64,000 nucleotides of DNA from Rhodospirillales bacterium (GTDB taxonomy: Bacteria; Pseudomonadota; Gammaproteobacteria; Burkholderiales; Burkholderiaceae_D): positions 1 to 64,000 of the forward strand of contig CAJCID010000207.1 in the NCBI GenBank assembly GCA_903970305.1, in the 5' to 3' direction. Made by a program: the position numbers and the translations under genes. Under the pieces are notes generated by a model. That model was given only the letters and a program-made list of their open reading frames with translations. It was not told the DNA's origin and ran no database searches. How positions within the stretch are numbered: the first letter of the stretch is position 1; each line of letters begins with the position of its first letter. Shown piece after piece: positions 8,841-18,462 of the stretch.

Positions 8841-11603
<2,763 letters not shown>

Positions 11604-11607
<4 letters not shown>

Positions 11608-12854
11608 GCGGCGACCCTCTCTAGAATGCCCACATGCACTGCGGCCTCTTCTACCCCCCAAAGGCCACCACCGTTCTCCTGAATTGCGATGCGCGCTCCT
11701 TCGACCTGCCGCGTGAGCGCTTCGCCACGAAGCTGTGTGACCAATTCGAAAATCTGACCAAGGCCTGTGGCACCGACGGGGTGTCCTTTACTTTCGAGTC
11801 CGCCCGAAGGATTGATCGGGATCCGTCCACCAATCGAAGTCTCGCCTTTCTCTGCGATGGCGCCGCTTTGACCTTCCTCGCATAAGCCCAGGGTCTCCGT
11901 CTGAATCAATTCCCCGACTGCCGTGGCATCGTGTACTTCCGCCAGGTCAATGTCTGCAGGTGACAACGAAGCACGCTCATAGGCTGTCTGTGCAGCAAGC
12001 CGTGTCGCGTGACGAGCCAGGTCTTCCCCGGAACGGCTGGTTGCGGAGCGCATGACGCTCGCCCGCACCCGAATCGCCCGCTTCACGTCGACCCCGAGGC
12101 GCTGCATGCCGGCTTTCGTCGCCAAGATGGCTGCAGCTGCACCGTCCGAGATGGGCGCGCACATCGGGAGGGTCAACGGGTAGGTGATCGGTGGTGCGGA
12201 GAGGACTTCGTCGACCGTCATGGTGTTTCGATACTGCGCGCGTTCGTTTTGGCTCGAGTGCTGATGATTCTTGGCTGAGACCTTGGCAATCTGACGCTGG
12301 GTAATTCCATACTTCAGCATCAACTGGCGGCCGAAAGCCGCGTAGATATCCATGAAGACGCTGTAAGGCCTTTCCGATACGGAGCCAGGCGGAGGCTCAA
12401 CTCCAGCGCCGAGCGCGACCAGACGGTCTGTGTTTTCTGGGACTGTTGCGATATCCCAGCCTGAGTCAAAGACTGAAAACATCTTCTGTTTGTCCGTGGA
12501 ATACATCTTCTCGACGCCGACGGCCAAGGCCACATCAGCATCGCCGGCCCGTAACTGACTTACCGCCAGATGAAAAGCAGTCGAAGCCGTTGCACACGCG
12601 TTTTCGACGTTATGAATGGGGATGCCTTCGAACCCCTGAGGCAGTAGAGCAATCTGGCCGCGGATGAAGGTTTGTCCTTCCATAAAGCCTTGCACACTGT
12701 TGCCAAAGAAAGCGACCTGCACATCCGACGCTGAGCAGCCGGCATCCTTGAGAGCGTCGGCCACTGCCCAATGGGACAATTGCTTGACGGATTTGTCCAG
12801 GTGCCGCCCGAACGGCGTCATTCCGACGCCGATGACATAAATTTCTTCTTCCAT
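11604..12854 (-). CDS. Thiolase-family protein (acetyl-CoA acetyltransferase / SCP-x type)
   Basis: The 416-aa protein has the thiolase fold. The nucleophilic Cys lies in VENACATAST (near residue 88), the first His in LAEVHDATA, and the second in SKGHPVGATGLGQ. The sequence is closer in appearance to SCP-x-like lipid-transfer thiolases than to FadA/PhaA, because the C-terminal Cys motif (usually CxGGG) is replaced by QENGGGLWG. Many such proteins act on branched or cyclic acyl-CoAs. AAGGAG and AGGGA precede the ATG. It starts 17 bases after the ligase stop and overlaps the nitroreductase start, placing it mid-operon as the likely carbon-carbon cleavage step. Confidence 0.9.
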
Positions 12855-12871: not shown

Positions 12872-14425
12872 TTAGATTGAGCGCCAGTGGCCTTCCCAGA
12901 ACTGCTTGCGGGCTTCACGGCGCATCAGTTTTCCGACCGCGCTCTTGGGCAGGTCTGGCCAAAATTCAACGGTCTTCGGGGTCTTCACGGGCCCGAGCCG
13001 TTCACGGCAGAGTGAAATGAGTTCTGCGTCCTCGACCGCTGCGCCCGGCTTGAGTCGCACCAATCCTTTGACGGCCTCACCCCATTTTTCGTCAGGAACG
13101 CCGATGACGATGCACTCGAGCACGGCCGGATGCGTGTTCAGTACGGCTTCAATTTCGTTGGGATAGACGTTAAATCCTCCCGAGATGATCATGTCTTTCT
13201 TGCGGTCAATCAGCGTGACGAATCCGCGCGCGTCCATCACCCCAACATCGCCCGTGTGATGCCAGCCATGCTTGGCTGCTTCAGCAGTGGCGTCTGGAAG
13301 CTTGTAATAGCCGCTCATCCCCATGGAGCCACGCACCACAATTTCTCCGGATACGCCAGCCGGGAGCAATGCGCCATCGTCGTCCATGATTCCAACTCGA
13401 ACGAAGGTGGGCGGCTTGCCCGACGATCTCAGGACGTCTTCGTCGATCTGACCATCCGCCTGCATGTAATCTGTGGGGCTCTTGATCAGGACCGGAATCA
13501 GAGTTTCGGTCTGGGCGTAGGCTTCGTAGATGACCGGCCCGAACAGGTGCACGGCCTGCCTGAACTTCTCGGGAGCCACCGGTGCGGCCCCGACCAAGAT
13601 GCAGCGCAAGCTGGTGAGGTCCAGTGTCCTTGCCAACGGACTAAGCATCAGCATGTACAAGATGGTGGGCGGCAAGAAGAGGTGAGTGATGCGCTCCTCA
13701 CTGCATTTGGTTAAGAAGGCGTCAGCATCGAATTCGGAAAGGATGACGTTGGCCCCCCCGACGGCGAGCAGGGCAAGTGCGATGTGACCCGCAGCGTGGG
13801 AGAGCGGGGCGACACTCAAGAGCCGATCCCCTTCTTGAAACCCCATGCTGACCGTCAGGTTGACGATCTCCATCTCAACCGACCGGTGGGTGTGCACCGC
13901 GCCTTTCGATGGCCCCGTCGTTCCTCCACTGGGCAGGATCAAAGCAATATCGTTGGGGTCCGCTGGAATGCAGTCAAACTCTTCGGAATGGCCGGCCAGC
14001 CACGTTTCCAGGGAGACTGCGTGATTCGACTGCCGGTCGATGCAGACCCAGAGCTTCACGTTGGGAAGGCCCGCTTTCAGCCGAGGAACCTCGGACTCGT
14101 AGGCACTGTTGAAGAAGACGACTTCGCAGTCAAGGTAGGAGAGAACCTCAATATTGGTTGCGGTTGAATTGCGGACGTGAACTCCGAGCGAGATGAGGTC
14201 GGCCCGATTTGCACCCCACTGGATGAGAGATACCCGGTGATCGTTACCGCTGTATACCGTGATTCGCGCGTGCTTTGAAAGAGAAGATTCCGACTTCAGT
14301 GCATTCGCGATCCTGTTCACTTGACGCTTGACCTCGGTGTAGGAGAGTCGAACTTCACGGTAGACGAGTGCCTCAGCGGCTGGATGCCGGTCGGCAGCCA
14401 CTTCCAGGTAATCGGCGATGCGCAT
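12872..14425 (-). CDS. Acyl-CoA synthetase (AMP-forming, class I adenylate-forming enzyme)
   Basis: The enzyme activates a carboxylic acid with ATP and CoA. Start is at 14425 (MRIADYLEV) with GGAGA about 8 bases upstream; the frame extends upstream but that part overlaps the crotonase gene. The 517-aa protein shows the P-loop-like LPSGGTTGPSKGAVHTH, the A5 region YEAYAQTE, the A7/A8 block HTGDVGVMDARG, the hinge DRKKDMIISGG and the catalytic Lys in KSAVGKLMRRE near the C-terminus. Substrate specificity cannot be read safely; a medium-chain, aryl or alicyclic acid is plausible. It follows the crotonase by 25 bases and should provide the entry step of the pathway. Confidence 0.92.
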   Translation of the reverse strand: MRIADYLEVAADRHPAAEALVYREVRLSYTEVKRQVNRIANALKSESSLSKHARITVYSGNDHRVSLIQWGANRADLISLGVHVRNSTATNIEVLSYLDCEVVFFNSAYESEVPRLKAGLPNVKLWVCIDRQSNHAVSLETWLAGHSEEFDCIPADPNDIALILPSGGTTGPSKGAVHTHRSVEMEIVNLTVSMGFQEGDRLLSVAPLSHAAGHIALALLAVGGANVILSEFDADAFLTKCSEERITHLFLPPTILYMLMLSPLARTLDLTSLRCILVGAAPVAPEKFRQAVHLFGPVIYEAYAQTETLIPVLIKSPTDYMQADGQIDEDVLRSSGKPPTFVRVGIMDDDGALLPAGVSGEIVVRGSMGMSGYYKLPDATAEAAKHGWHHTGDVGVMDARGFVTLIDRKKDMIISGGFNVYPNEIEAVLNTHPAVLECIVIGVPDEKWGEAVKGLVRLKPGAAVEDAELISLCRERLGPVKTPKTVEFWPDLPKSAVGKLMRREARKQFWEGHWRSI

Positions 14426-14450: not shown

Positions 14451-15266
14451 TTATCGGCCGAGGTACTTCGGCACCCGTTTTTCGGTGAAGGCAGCGAGGC
14501 CTTCATTTCTGTCGTGCGACAGCATATGCTCTGCACTTAACCGCAGTTCCCCTTCTAGTTGCTCCTTGGCCGACAGGTCGCCACCTTCGACGAGGGCTTT
14601 CATGCGACTAAGCACTAAGGAACTCTTCTGAGCAATTTCATTGGTGATTTCTTCGACGCGCGACTCCAACGAATCTGGTTCGCAGACCTCGTCGACTAGA
14701 CCCCATGCTTCGGCCCTTGTTGCATCAATTGTTTGCCCGGTAAACATCAGATGCTTGGCACGTGACTTGCCGATACGTCGAGGCAGGCGCACCGTACCGC
14801 CTCCGCCGGGAATCTGGCCGAAATTGGCGTGACCGTCCCCAAGCCGGGCCTTGGCACTTGCGATGACGATGTCGCAGCAGAGCATCAGTTCAAGACCACC
14901 TGCGACCGTGATTCCGTTCACCGCGGCGATAGTCGGAATGGGTAGCGACTCGATTTGATTAAAGACATCGCCGACCTGGCGAAGAAATTGAGCCGTCACC
15001 TCATTTGCGGTGCCGGAATGGCCTCTTGCCAATACCGCCTTGAGATCGGCGCCAGCGCAAAATCCTGTGCCGCTGCCGGTGATGACTAGAGAGCGAATGG
15101 TGGCGTCCGAAGAAGCCGCCTTGACGGCTCGTCCAAGCAGCTCGACGCTCGATGACGTGAGAGCGTTGAAGGCTTCAGGACGAGTCAATGTGACCCAGAG
15201 GCTCGTGCCGCGAAGGTGGGCTGCGACTTCGGCAGGGGATTCGCCGGGGTTGAATGCGACAGTCAT
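14451..15266 (-). CDS. Enoyl-CoA hydratase/isomerase-family protein (crotonase fold)
   Basis: The 271-aa protein has the crotonase oxyanion motif GFCAGADLK and the second NH donor in ITVAGGLELMLCCD. The first catalytic Glu of rat crotonase (Glu144) is kept in GGLEL, but the second (Glu164 in QPEI) is replaced by His in GDGHANFGQ. With one general base missing, simple hydration is uncertain and isomerase, hydrolase or ring-acting chemistry is possible. It is the first gene of the minus-strand operon. Its translation start lies next to a TGAC-rich palindrome, only 63 bases from the divergent TetR gene. Confidence 0.88.
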   Translation of the reverse strand: MTVAFNPGESPAEVAAHLRGTSLWVTLTRPEAFNALTSSSVELLGRAVKAASSDATIRSLVITGSGTGFCAGADLKAVLARGHSGTANEVTAQFLRQVGDVFNQIESLPIPTIAAVNGITVAGGLELMLCCDIVIASAKARLGDGHANFGQIPGGGGTVRLPRRIGKSRAKHLMFTGQTIDATRAEAWGLVDEVCEPDSLESRVEEITNEIAQKSSLVLSRMKALVEGGDLSAKEQLEGELRLSAEHMLSHDRNEGLAAFTEKRVPKYLGR

Positions 15267-15271
15267 TTAAT

Positions 15272-15286
15272 TGACCTGGATAGTCA
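15272..15286. promoter_or_regulatory. Candidate TetR operator between the divergent genes
   Basis: TGACC-TGGAT-AGTCA is a near-palindrome in the 63-base gap between the crotonase gene (minus) and the TetR gene (plus), directly over the crotonase ribosome-binding region. It resembles the two TGACT-N4-AGTCA palindromes upstream of the SDR gene (17678, 17714) but its spacer is one base longer and one half-site is imperfect. Assignment to the adjacent TetR protein is inference. Confidence 0.4.
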
Positions 15287-15329
15287 TAACAGGTAGGCTC
15301 CCTTGCGAACACGACCTGGGGAAGAGTGC

Positions 15330-15995
15330 ATGCCTCGCTGGAAAAATGAGTCGAAGACTAGTGACGAAATTCAGAGCATTAAGCGCGCTGCGGTCATCAA
15401 GCAGGCGGGCCTTGCATTCAGCAAGCGCGGGTACCACAACACGTCTCTCGACGACGTCGCGAAGATGCTGCAGGTGTCCAAGGGCACGCTCTACAACTAC
15501 GTAAAGGACAAGCAGGAAATACTTTTTGAGTGCCACGAGATGGCGCTCGACATCGGTGATCGAGCTTTCCGGTTTGCCAAGGATCATCCGGGCACAGGAG
15601 CGGAAGTCCTGGAGGCCACGCTCTACAAGTACATCGAGATGCTGACTGGGGAGCTCGGGGCTTGCGGGGTCCTGATGGAGGTCGACGCCCTGCGACCTGA
15701 AGATCGAGAGAAGATTGCCAAGAGACGAAATGCCTTCGAGAAGAGCTTCGTCGCCATGTTGCAAGAGGGGATGAAGGACGGATCGATGCGTGCGGTTGAC
15801 CCAAAGCTTGCCGTGTTTACTTTCATGGGTGCAATTAACTGGATGCCCAGATGGTTCGACCCAGAAGGCCGACTCTCTGGCTCGGAAGTCGCGCGTCAGA
15901 TGACCGACATCCTCTTGACGGGACTGGTGACTGCAAAGCCTCCCGTCCATGCAAAGCCGGCCTCTCGCTTCGGTCTGAAGGCAGGCGCGGGGTAG
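15330..15995 (+). CDS. TetR/AcrR-family transcriptional regulator
   Basis: Start at 15330 (MPRWKNESK) follows GGGAAG at proper spacing; an upstream ATG-like extension has none. The 221-aa protein has an N-terminal TetR helix-turn-helix (AGLAFSKRGYHNTSLDDVA then LQVSKGTLYNYVKDKQEI), followed by a helical ligand-binding domain of the TetR_C type. It is divergent from the ligase-thiolase operon and convergent with the SDR-crotonase pair, so it most likely represses both and responds to a CoA ester or acid of the pathway, as FadR/PaaR/LiuR-type TetR proteins do. The ligand is unknown. Confidence 0.9.
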   Translation: MPRWKNESKTSDEIQSIKRAAVIKQAGLAFSKRGYHNTSLDDVAKMLQVSKGTLYNYVKDKQEILFECHEMALDIGDRAFRFAKDHPGTGAEVLEATLYKYIEMLTGELGACGVLMEVDALRPEDREKIAKRRNAFEKSFVAMLQEGMKDGSMRAVDPKLAVFTFMGAINWMPRWFDPEGRLSGSEVARQMTDILLTGLVTAKPPVHAKPASRFGLKAGAG

Positions 15996-16034
15996 AAGAG
16001 CGTGCACTGGCGCGTGTGAGTTCAACGGGAAGGT

Positions 16035-16823
16035 TTACTTCGGACCGAGCCGCTTGAGCGCAGCCTGGGCCTCTGGCTGCTGAATGCACGCTTCGAAGGA
16101 TTGCTTTTCCGCTGCTAACTGACTCGCCAAGTCGTTGCGTACCGCTTGGTCCAAAAGCGGTTTGGTTGCCTCGACAAACGCCGGCGGCAAGGACGCGAGG
16201 TCAAGTGCCAGTTTGTGTGTCGCGTCTGCAAGCTCCGCTGGTTCGACCACCTTGCTCACGATGCCTATTTCCTTGGCTTCGGCGGCGCTTAGCCGTTCCT
16301 CCATGAAGTACAGTCGCATGGCATTACGCAAACCTATTGCGCGAACCATATTGGCTGTTCCGCCGAAGTCGGGCGAAGCGGCGAGCTTGGCATATGCCGG
16401 GACGAACACTGCCTGACTGGACGCAATACAAAAGTCGCAGGCAACGACGAGGGAAAGCCCGCCTCCAGCTGCTGCACCTTGGACGCTTGCGACCACGAGC
16501 TTTCGGGACTTCCTCAGTTTGAGCAGGAAGTCGTTTGCCGCACCGAGCATGCGGTCCACCGTGCCCACCAAGTCGTCGCCCTGAGAGGCGAAGAATTGCA
16601 AATCGCCCCCTCCGCAGAATCCCTTACCGACAGCCCTGATGACGACCACTCTGACGTCTGCCGAAGCTTCGATTTGCCCGAGATAAGAGAGCAGCAGTTG
16701 CATGACCGCTTCGTCCAACGCGTTGTATCTGGCCGGACGATTAAGGGTGATATACGCAACCGGACCTTCAAAGGCGAGTAGCACGCCCGGCTGTTCGGAT
16801 CTCTGAAGGGGCACCGAGCTCAT
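16035..16823 (-). CDS. Enoyl-CoA hydratase/isomerase-family protein, isomerase-like active site
   Basis: Start is placed at 16823 (MSSVPLQRS), where ATG overlaps the SDR stop as ATGA; a longer frame would run into the SDR gene. The 262-aa crotonase-fold protein has GFCGGGDLQFF and GAAAGGGLSLVVACD. Both hydratase glutamates are absent: Ser sits at the Glu144 position, and the second region reads AYAKLAASPDFGGT. The PDFGG element resembles PaaG/enoyl-CoA isomerases, which use Asp there. A double-bond isomerase in ring-derived CoA-ester breakdown is a reasonable guess, not proven. Transcribed with the upstream SDR. Confidence 0.86.
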   Translation of the reverse strand: MSSVPLQRSEQPGVLLAFEGPVAYITLNRPARYNALDEAVMQLLLSYLGQIEASADVRVVVIRAVGKGFCGGGDLQFFASQGDDLVGTVDRMLGAANDFLLKLRKSRKLVVASVQGAAAGGGLSLVVACDFCIASSQAVFVPAYAKLAASPDFGGTANMVRAIGLRNAMRLYFMEERLSAAEAKEIGIVSKVVEPAELADATHKLALDLASLPPAFVEATKPLLDQAVRNDLASQLAAEKQSFEACIQQPEAQAALKRLGPK

Positions 16824-17611
16824 TGCGATGTTGAATAGCCACCGTTGACGGCATAGGTTTGGCCTGAAATCCAACTGGCGGCTTCTGAGGCCAAAAAAAG
16901 GATCATGTTGGCTGCATCGGTAGGCTCGCCGAGGCGACGAACGATGTAGCTCCTCAACATGCGCTTCACCAGCGCTTCATCTGAGAGGAGTTCTTGCAGT
17001 CCCGGGGTGTTGATGCTTGCAAGCGACACGGAGTTCACCCTGATGCCATGCGCGCCAACGCCCTTGGCCAGTGCCCTGGAGAATCCTGAGGCGCCGGCCT
17101 TGGCGGCCGAATAGACGGCGAGATTTGCTTCGCCAACTCGGCCCGCGTCGGAAATGACGTTGACGATACTGCCGCCGGTGCCGGAATTGATGATGAGCGG
17201 CACGGTAATTCGACACGTGTTCAGCACGCCGTAGAGATTGGTCCCAAGCCAGCGGCTCCAGTCGCTAGGTTCCGTTTCCCAAAAGGGCGGCAGATCGCCG
17301 ATGCCGTCAGTCGGGCCGGCATTACCTGCATTGTTGACAACGACGTGGAGACCGCCGGTTTTCTCCACGGCAGCTTCAACCAGCCTGGAGAAGGCTGGAT
17401 AGTCAGTGATGTCAGCCGCAACCACGATGGATCTGGCACCCAGTTCGGCGACCTCTTTGGCTACGGCTTCGGCGCGGTCGGCATGGAAGTCGTTGACGAG
17501 GACCGTATCGCAACCATTGGCAGCAAAGTGAAGCGCCGTCTGGCGCCCGACTCCTTGCCCTGCCCCTGTGACCAGGGCCGTCCTGCCTTGAAGACTGAGA
17601 ATGTTTTGCAC
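16820..17611 (-). CDS. Short-chain dehydrogenase/reductase (SDR), 3-hydroxyacyl-CoA dehydrogenase/ketoreductase-like
   Basis: Classical SDR of 263 aa. The NAD(P)-binding TGAGQGVG (15-22) is followed by an acidic residue at the end of the second strand (VNDFHAD), which favours NAD. NNAG (about 92-95) and a Ser-Tyr-Lys active site (VISDAGR, then VYSAAKAG) follow, and the end is YAVNGGYS. It starts with GTG at 17611 with GGAA upstream. It is coupled to a crotonase-family gene and preceded by two TGACT-N4-AGTCA palindromes. The likely role is oxidation of a 3-hydroxyacyl-CoA in the same catabolic route. Confidence 0.9.
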   Translation of the reverse strand: MQNILSLQGRTALVTGAGQGVGRQTALHFAANGCDTVLVNDFHADRAEAVAKEVAELGARSIVVAADITDYPAFSRLVEAAVEKTGGLHVVVNNAGNAGPTDGIGDLPPFWETEPSDWSRWLGTNLYGVLNTCRITVPLIINSGTGGSIVNVISDAGRVGEANLAVYSAAKAGASGFSRALAKGVGAHGIRVNSVSLASINTPGLQELLSDEALVKRMLRSYIVRRLGEPTDAANMILFLASEAASWISGQTYAVNGGYSTSQ

Positions 17612-17677
17612 CTGGCGAATTCCAAGAAAGCGTTGTCGGTGGGGCCGGAGGCATTGTGACGATGCAATGCAACAAAA

Positions 17678-17691
17678 TGACTATAAAGTCA
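17678..17691. promoter_or_regulatory. Palindrome TGACT-ATAA-AGTCA upstream of SDR gene, candidate TetR operator
   Basis: A perfect 5-bp inverted repeat with a 4-base spacer, 67 bases upstream of the SDR start. Its twin lies 36 bp away centre to centre. The shared form and position suggest a repressor site for the pathway regulator. Confidence 0.5.
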
Positions 17692-17713
17692 GAAATGGCA
17701 GTGTAGTCGGGTT

Positions 17714-17727
17714 TGACTCAAAAGTCA
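17714..17727. promoter_or_regulatory. Palindrome TGACT-CAAA-AGTCA upstream of SDR gene, candidate TetR operator
   Basis: The second perfect copy of TGACT-N4-AGTCA. It lies between the SDR promoter area and the isc promoter. It partly resembles the core of an IscR type 1 site but lacks the flanking ATA and GGGTAT, so a TetR site is preferred. Confidence 0.45.
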
Positions 17728-17802
17728 GTCGTTTTTTGTGACGAACGCGTTTATGCCACCCGCCTCCACGACCTGCGTCGAGTATGCCGTTGGAATAGGC
17801 TA

Positions 17803-17828
17803 ATAGTTGACTGTTTTAGTAGGTTAAT
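17803..17828 (+). promoter_or_regulatory. IscR type 1 binding site 1
   Basis: ATAGTTGACTGTTTTAGTAG followed by GTTAAT fits the known IscR type 1 pattern (ATA-TTGAC-N6-AGT-GGGTAT) with a degenerate right end. It covers the -35 hexamer, as expected for repression of iscR by holo-IscR. Confidence 0.75.
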
Positions 17829-17835
17829 CTATACT
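17807..17835 (+). promoter_or_regulatory. isc operon promoter (sigma70-like)
   Basis: TTGACT (17807-17812) and TATACT (17830-17835) are separated by exactly 17 bases, giving a near-consensus sigma70 promoter about 90 bases before the iscR start. Each hexamer is embedded in one IscR box, so binding of [2Fe-2S]-IscR should block polymerase. The start site would fall near 17842. Confidence 0.75.
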
Positions 17836-17855
17836 TGACCAAGACAGTCGGGTAT
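17831..17855 (+). promoter_or_regulatory. IscR type 1 binding site 2
   Basis: ATACTTGACCAAGACAGTCG followed by GGTAT matches the type 1 IscR consensus almost throughout. It lies 28 bases from site 1 and covers the -10 hexamer and start region. The two-site layout mirrors the enterobacterial iscR promoter. Confidence 0.8.
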
Positions 17856-17925
17856 AACGTAACCAAGTACAAGTGCTCACTCAGTTTTCCGTCTCGGATC
17901 TCTCGGCCAGCACATTAGGGCAGCG

Positions 17926-18462
17926 ATGCGATTGACCACCAAAGGGCGTTTTGCGGTGACCGCCATGATTGATCTGGCGCTGCGCGAGCATGCCGGTCCG
18001 GTCACGCTGGCGGGTATAAGCGGTCGCCAGAGCATCTCCTTGTCCTACCTCGAACAGCTCTTTGGCAAACTGCGGCGCCATGCTCTGGTAGAAAGCGTCC
18101 GCGGTCCCGGAGGCGGCTACTCGCTGGCGCGCCGCATGGCCGACATATCGGTGGCCGACATCATTTATGCGGTCGACGAGCCGATCGATGCGACCCAGTG
18201 CAAGGGTAAGGAAAACTGCCTGGATGACCACCGTTGCCTGACCCACGATCTGTGGGCCAACCTGAATCATCACATGGTCGAGTACCTCGACTCGGTGACT
18301 CTGCACGACCTGGTGGCCCAACAGCGCGACCGATTGCGTCGCCAGCAGGAACTGGGGCACGTGGGTGTATTGCGCGACCACCGCGGTGGCGCAAAGGATG
18401 GCATCGGTGAGCCCGTGCCCACTTCCTTGTCCGAGACCGCCGCCCAGGCTAGTCCGACCTGA
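17926..18462 (+). CDS. iscR: Fe-S cluster-sensing transcriptional regulator IscR
   Basis: Rrf2-family repressor of its own operon. The 178-aa protein begins with the standard [19 protein letters not shown] winged-helix domain, with [13 protein letters not shown] as the recognition part. The [2Fe-2S] ligands are at their usual places: Cys92, Cys98, Cys104 and His107 ([17 protein letters not shown]). The C-terminal tail is longer and low-complexity compared with E. coli. It heads the isc operon behind a promoter bearing two IscR boxes, so feedback by cluster status is expected. Confidence 0.97.

Follow-up and report, generated by a model that had tools for sequence, protein, structure and literature searches.

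The tetR locus and its half-sites

The stretch considered here, referred to as the window, comprises the first 64,000 nucleotides of contig CAJCID010000207.1 of a Rhodospirillales bacterium (GCA_903970305.1, an incomplete assembly of 4.33 Mb in 329 contigs with a completeness of 91.57), and it contains a gene cluster around a TetR-family regulator gene, tetR, together with two copies of the palindrome TGACT-N4-AGTCA, the predicted operator of that regulator. The tetR gene (15330..15995, plus strand, ATG at 15330) encodes a predicted repressor of 221 amino acids, in which the helix-turn-helix domain TetR_N (Pfam PF00440) scored 42.1 bits (cut-off 24, 7.3e-11) and the domain TetR_C_24 (PF17932) 101.4 bits (cut-off 26.4, 4.8e-29), with KGTLYNYV as the recognition helix. 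The main operon lies on the minus strand between 8841 and 15266 and presents, in order of increasing coordinate, an Old Yellow Enzyme / FadH-type reductase (8841..10871, ATG at 10871; Pfam Oxidored_FMN 1.6e-71 and Pyr_redox_2 1.5e-21, scanned from the second codon), a nitroreductase-family flavoprotein (10879..11607, ATG at 11607; Pfam Nitroreductase 5.2e-30, scanned with two additional codons at its beginning), a thiolase of the lipid-transfer-protein type (11604..12854; Pfam Thiolase_C_1 1e-38; NCBIfam PRK08256 1.9e-94, its 316.9 bits being under the cut-off of 436), an AMP-forming acyl-coenzyme A (CoA) ligase (12872..14425; Pfam AMP-binding 5.6e-65) and crotonase 1 (14451..15266; Pfam ECH_1 3.2e-54), the first gene of the operon, whose start codon at 15266 is separated from tetR by a gap of 63 bases (15267-15329). 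On the other side of tetR, the minus strand carries crotonase 2, of the enoyl-CoA hydratase/isomerase family (16035..16823; Pfam ECH_1 5e-48), and an SDR oxidoreductase with a GTG start (16820..17611; Pfam adh_short_C2 4.3e-54). Next comes iscR (from 17926, plus strand; TIGR02010 217.9 bits, cut-off 207.55), transcribed away from the SDR gene. Since the regulator gene and the palindrome that it most likely binds occur side by side in distantly related bacteria as well, the genes of the cluster may be taken to share one regulation. As a side observation, tetR stands antisense within the row of minus-strand genes (15330-16035), and the gene order is identical in a related locus (L016); no terminator-like site was found in a scan of the minus strand between crotonase 2 and tetR, and antisense transcripts from the SDR gene may cross tetR.

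Two perfect palindromes were found between the SDR gene and iscR, at the positions given for them, upstream of the SDR-crotonase pair, in a preliminary description of this DNA. The first predicted operator, O1 (17714..17727; TGACTCAAAAGTCA, TGACT-CAAA-AGTCA), lies 102 bases ahead of the SDR start codon, and the second, O2 (17678..17691; TGACTATAAAGTCA, TGACT-ATAA-AGTCA), 66 bases ahead of it, with the SDR gene as the first gene behind them. They are 36 base pairs (bp) apart and are the sole exact sites in the whole assembly, and the 14-mer of O2 recurs identically in L016 at 5620. At a distance of 21 bp from the second arm of O2, a third half-site follows, GTCA on the minus strand (17657..17660). 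The near copy also described earlier, TGACC-TGGAT-AGTCA (15272..15286), is likewise present in the 63-base gap between tetR and crotonase 1. It adjoins an everted pair of half-sites, AGTCA-TTTAAT-TGACC (15261..15276), whose AGTCA arm overlaps the crotonase 1 start codon, and beyond this pair a further AGTCA half-site is found (15282-15286).

On the minus strand at the SDR gene, CTGACT (17728-17723), overlapping O1, is a possible -35 box, with TACACT (17705-17700) 17 bases on and O2 just downstream of this possible -10 box; this promoter reading (8/12, below the scan threshold) is only a suggestion. At tetR, TTGACC (15271-15276) may serve as a -35 box, with TAGGCT (15294-15299) 17 bases on (8/12). 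Over 15200-17950, the scan placed a single promoter above its threshold, TTGACT-N17-TATACT at iscR. In that promoter region (17802-17835), it is overlapped by an IscR type-1-like element, AATAGTTGACTGTTTTAGTAGGTTAAT (17802-17828).

Linkage of the palindrome to tetR

The regulator is very likely a TetR repressor that controls its own gene and the CoA-dependent acid-degradation cluster around it; it is predicted to bind TGACT-N4-AGTCA and would be released by an acyl-CoA. The linkage of the palindrome to tetR was assessed in relatives gathered through protein similarity to TetR and not through the motif. In a first set of 12 relatives (47-80% identity), exact palindromes were present in six of the loci (L016 to L021), and several stood ahead of genes like those of the window, namely the SDR gene (L016 at 5531 and 5620; L019 at 5824), the ligase (L017 at 1433) and a crotonase-SDR pair (L018 at 2619). 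With the KGTLYNYV helix assigned from a 13-member TetR alignment, the first eight genomes bearing it (own genome included, scanned whole) had 25 of their 30 exact sites within 35 kb of tetR, and in two more (G1238 and G1141), which were added and scanned once the rule had been fixed, all 5 sites fell within 18 kb, one in each genome lying ~330-350 bases upstream of tetR. Over the ten genomes, 30 of 35 exact sites were thus near tetR, where ~0.5 would be expected from genome sizes; a reversed palindrome, used as the control, had 19 sites there and not one of them near tetR. Without the own genome, in which the motif was first noticed, the count was 28 of 33 (0.4 expected). By genome, sites near tetR over the total were 2/2 (own), 2/2 (G399), 11/11 (G400), 1/1 (G401), 1/2 (G402), 4/4 (G403), 3/4 (G404), 1/4 (G407), 2/2 (G1238) and 3/3 (G1141); a match in G977, apparently the same as G401 (same contig number and near-identical coordinates), was counted once. 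Relatives at E 1e-40 appeared in 3 of 399, 3 of 398 and 2 of 369 genomes in random samples of the order, phylum and class, respectively (own genome counted each time), and relatives at E 1e-50 in 3 of 249 genomes of the family of G404, G404 included.

Moreover, the sites share a fine structure. The N4 spacer, left free in the search, was biased to TT..AA in 30 cluster sites, T occupying 41/60 and 40/60 of the symmetrised positions, and G was found at the first symmetrised position in none of them. In 9 of the 30 sites, GTCA lies exactly 31 bases from the palindrome start, which places it 21 bp beyond the second arm; when the flanks were shuffled 2000 times, no offset collected more than 4. The site at 17678 is among the nine and that at 17714 is not; the nine are not fully independent, because several precede SDR genes of related clusters. 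A second arrangement recurs upstream of tetR itself, where AGTCA-N6-TGACY with at most one mismatch was found in 4 of 8 regions (window, L016, L019 and L020), against 0.03 expected by shuffling; the L017 region presents TGAATCTTAAGTCA, with one mismatch, and in L021 and L024 imperfect copies stand farther from tetR, at 263 and 294 bases, respectively.

Several results weigh against the predicted regulon. In the whole assembly, exact matches numbered 2 against 4 for the reversed control, and matches with at most one mismatch 49 against 56. The near copy at 15272 deviates both in the spacer and in an arm, and would not be significant taken alone. No promoter of at least 9/12 was found at SDR or tetR in the scan, and in L018 no site could be recognised within 130 bases ahead of tetR. 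Furthermore, 5 of the 35 exact sites in KGTLYNYV genomes lie away from tetR (one in G402, one in G404 and three in G407), and the 35-kb limit was picked after the data were seen. Finally, of the eight other genomes scanned, five have KPALYYYV or KAALYYYV helices and three (G270, G323 and G479) more distant TetRs; together they hold 5 exact sites, of which 2 (in G405 and G323) are within 35 kb of tetR, so that the split by helix is not clean.

The genome counts bear on a claim of the preliminary description, which had proposed a motif scan and had named a frequency no higher than chance as refuting the regulon; taken literally, this is what the scan of the own genome returned. A motif count is, however, a poor test for the regulon of one cluster. 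Since counts were at chance level also in the window (16 matches with at most two mismatches, 16.1 expected), frequency was dropped as a test and position and conservation were used instead. The non-random feature is the position, as both exact copies stand ahead of a single gene belonging to the tetR cluster, and the clusters around tetR in other genomes bear the motif too. A chance origin of the palindromes, without any part in binding, as counts at shuffled or reversed-control level would allow, is extremely improbable given their concentration beside tetR in the ten genomes, with or without the own one, and the complete lack of control sites there, together with the spacer bias and the phased third half-site. 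As for extra regulon members, the own genome has 47 one-mismatch places, and none is claimed, the whole count with at most one mismatch being below the control; 13 of these loci (L003-L015) were viewed for open reading frames only.

Two other proteins could be proposed as binders of the palindromes. One is IscR, which shares the intergenic region with the SDR gene and whose promoter carries the type-1-like element AATAGTTGACTGTTTTAGTAGGTTAAT. IscR type-1 sites also contain GACT...AGT halves. However, tblastn (E up to 1e-8) returned no IscR match in any of the 12 TetR loci, six of which have exact palindromes, and the element at the iscR promoter has a 5-base spacer and different flanks; IscR was thus rejected as the binder, and we consider it highly improbable. 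The second proposal is a different regulator, the cluster TetR then having another operator. From the sequences alone, further regulator genes can be read in or near some clusters (a LysR-like gene in G403, a second TetR-like gene in G404 and, beyond the last operator of G400, two more TetR-like genes). Against this, tetR is the sole family present in all eight clusters compared by reciprocal best match, the sites follow tetR into further genomes, and ACT-N4-AGT is a known form of TetR-family operator, as described for DarR (PMC10636190), making this proposal very unlikely.

Predicted repression and related regulators

In the mechanism proposed, a TetR dimer would bind the 14-bp TGACT-N4-AGTCA, with a spacer usually resembling TT..AA, and would block RNA polymerase. 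At the SDR-crotonase 2 operon, O1 would cover the likely -35 region and O2 the likely transcription start, while the looser set of half-sites at 15261-15286 would cover the likely tetR promoter and the crotonase 1 start. From this last placement we infer that the repressor probably controls itself and the main operon. The third half-site 21 bp away suggests a second dimer beside the first at some promoters. The inducer would most likely be an acyl-CoA made by the cluster ligase (12872-14425), or an intermediate derived from it.

Alternatively, TetR would control only the SDR-crotonase 2 operon, the element at 15272 being simply the -35 box of tetR and the main operon lying outside the regulon. 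The imperfection of the 15272 copy and a promoter readable as TTGACC-N17-TAGGCT favour this alternative, which we nevertheless consider unlikely, as AGTCA-N6-TGACY recurs in half of the tetR upstream regions far beyond the shuffled expectation, its window copy overlaps the crotonase 1 start, and in G400 an exact site (L017 at 1433) stands ahead of the genes most like the ligase and thiolase of the window. The proposal of one TetR regulon made in the preliminary description is upheld as far as the link between the palindromes and TetR is concerned (30 of 35 sites against 0 of 19), and amended as to the gap between tetR and the main operon, where the recurring element is AGTCA-N6-TGACY (15261-15276) and not the copy at 15272.

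An AlphaFold model of TetR was mostly helical (mean pLDDT 82, pTM 0.76, from a shallow alignment of 13 sequences) and matched TetR structures, the nearest solved folds being 3dcf, PfmR, AibR, DarR and KstR2, with FadR further down. Among the named TetR models of NCBIfam, all 14 matches (E <=0.001) were below their cut-offs, including the FadR equivalog NF053878 (43.7 bits, cut-off 200). AibR (PDB 5k7f, 5k7h and 5k7z, structures presumably of Myxococcus origin) is among the closest solved structures by both sequence and fold, although its identity to the cluster TetR is 23-25%; according to the PDB titles, AibR has been solved with isovaleryl-CoA (in one entry) and with operator DNA. KstR2 of Mycobacterium tuberculosis has a related fold (PDB 4w97 and 4w1u), with 22-24% identity. 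It is the TetR repressor of a ring-degradation regulon and is released by a CoA thioester of the pathway, and its operator sequence presumably differs from the palindrome of the cluster. The FadR proteins of Bacillus and Thermus thermophilus are also TetR-family regulators, in their case of fatty acid degradation, and a B. subtilis FadR structure holds stearoyl-CoA. By analogy with these proteins, an acyl-CoA-released repressor would be the natural reading of the cluster TetR. In T. thermophilus, the FadR consensus TTRNACYNRGTNYAA also has an ACY...RGT core, but with a 1-base spacer (PMC5597230).

A precedent for the form of the operator is DarR, a relative found by sequence, a mycobacterial TetR-family repressor that binds ATACT-N4-AGTAT and reads the arms with Lys44-Gly45 (PMC10636190, as for the DarR dimers, ligands and targets below). 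Both operators have two 5-bp arms, an N4 spacer and an ACT-N4-AGT core, and the Lys-Gly of the DarR recognition helix aligns with Lys51-Gly52 of the cluster TetR. However, exact operator and dimer spacing differ. The outer bases are those of ATACT in DarR and TGACT here, and the DarR operator was accordingly not matched by the cluster sites, which read TGACT-N4-AGTCA. Two DarR dimers occupy one operator, the second with just one good half-site, and their sites overlap inside 20 bp; in the present sites, the extra half-site lies at a distance of 20-21 bp. DarR also binds c-di-AMP/cAMP, and the targets named for it (darR, Ms5347 and cspA) are other genes than those of the cluster. BadR, from the cyclohexane carboxylate gene cluster in Aromatoleum sp. 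CIB, was likewise compared (PMC9795900). It is a repressor encoded beside a CoA ligase and ring-degradation genes, with operators predicted over -35 boxes, and is released by the first CoA thioester; however, it is of the MarR and not the TetR type, its operator is CAAN4TTG and its gene set is another, so that BadR was rejected as a counterpart for its type and operator.

Composite sites and gene sets across genomes

Composite sites were found beside TetRs with other recognition helices. The Ferrovibrio-like KPALYYYV TetRs (L022, L026 and L027) have sites of the form TGACT-N15-TKACT-N4-AGTCA, with the extra half-site 20 bp away, and a rule by which another helix would mean no site was rejected, as KPALYYYV and KAALYYYV TetRs have composite sites with T(G/T)ACT arms. 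With a loose composite pattern, the hits on the tetR contig, contigs being matched by their length, were 3/7 in G405, 2/4 in G409, 2/4 in G410, 1/8 in G406 and 0/7 in G408, and in these five genomes together the pattern gave 30 hits, compared to 5 when reversed. Near-identical composite sites recur in the Ferrovibrio-like genomes (L031, L032, L022 at 1363, L026 at 1359 and L027 at 1361), where the spacers are AT-rich and almost unchanged. A tentative generalization, which we hold at somewhat below even chances, is that this TetR subfamily uses a composite operator, made of the 14-bp TGACT-N4-AGTCA and a helically phased third half-site (at 21 bp in some of the KGTLYNYV sites, at 20 bp in the clearest KPALYYYV ones); together, they would seat two neighbouring dimers on a single face, across the promoters of catabolic gene sets that vary from genus to genus. 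The operator code would then have spread over different pathways with the helix nearly constant, an arrangement not met in the open-licence papers searched.

Elsewhere, the cluster genes that follow an operator include those for SDR, crotonase, ligase and transport proteins, and palindromes precede SDR or crotonase-SDR genes in L016, L018 and L019. In the comparison of eight clusters, SDR and ligase were found in five and thiolase and crotonase 2 in four, the gene calls being simple ones of our own that missed some genes (among them the SDR of G401, seen by tblastn in L018, and the thiolase truncated by the end of the contig in L016). In G400, eleven exact operators, the only ones of the genome, extend over ~42 kb (L057-L059, C52:32168-74410), accompanied by genes that we read as two or more sets for ABC transporters of the branched-chain type (four proteins checked). 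Near these operators, ten proteins were scanned (one with no match), and they included periplasmic binding proteins, a branched-chain-type ABC ATPase and permease, an acyl-CoA dehydrogenase, a CoA-transferase III, and nitronate monooxygenase-type, MFS and SDR proteins. Crotonase, OYE-type reductase, acyl-CoA ligase, DUF1302 and MMPL proteins lie near the operators of G403; SDR, ligase and TonB-receptor proteins near those of G404; and a TonB receptor near those of G407. The sphingomonad clusters (G404:C12 and G407:C3; L049, L050 and L061) have the TetR and operator in common and, in the eight-cluster comparison, none of the enzyme families of the window; TonB receptors stand behind operators there, and the regulator looks to have been recruited anew for a different substrate. 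From the genes present, the common theme of the clusters appears to be CoA-dependent acid degradation with uptake, with a substrate that may differ between genera; as the clusters vary in the genes that they hold, we do not name a pathway.

In the literature searched (open-licence papers), no description of this regulator-operator pair was found, and six spellings of the motif matched one paper only, on an unrelated small RNA pair of E. coli. The operators of G400 outline ~42 kb with branched-chain-type ABC transport, acyl-CoA dehydrogenase, CoA-transferase, ligase and thiolase genes, which narrows the search for substrate and inducer. Furthermore, the regulator-operator pair is a candidate part for acyl-CoA sensing. 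Overall, an uncharacterised TetR subfamily gains a searchable predicted operator, through which its regulon and the acid-degradation pathway can be read from genomes.

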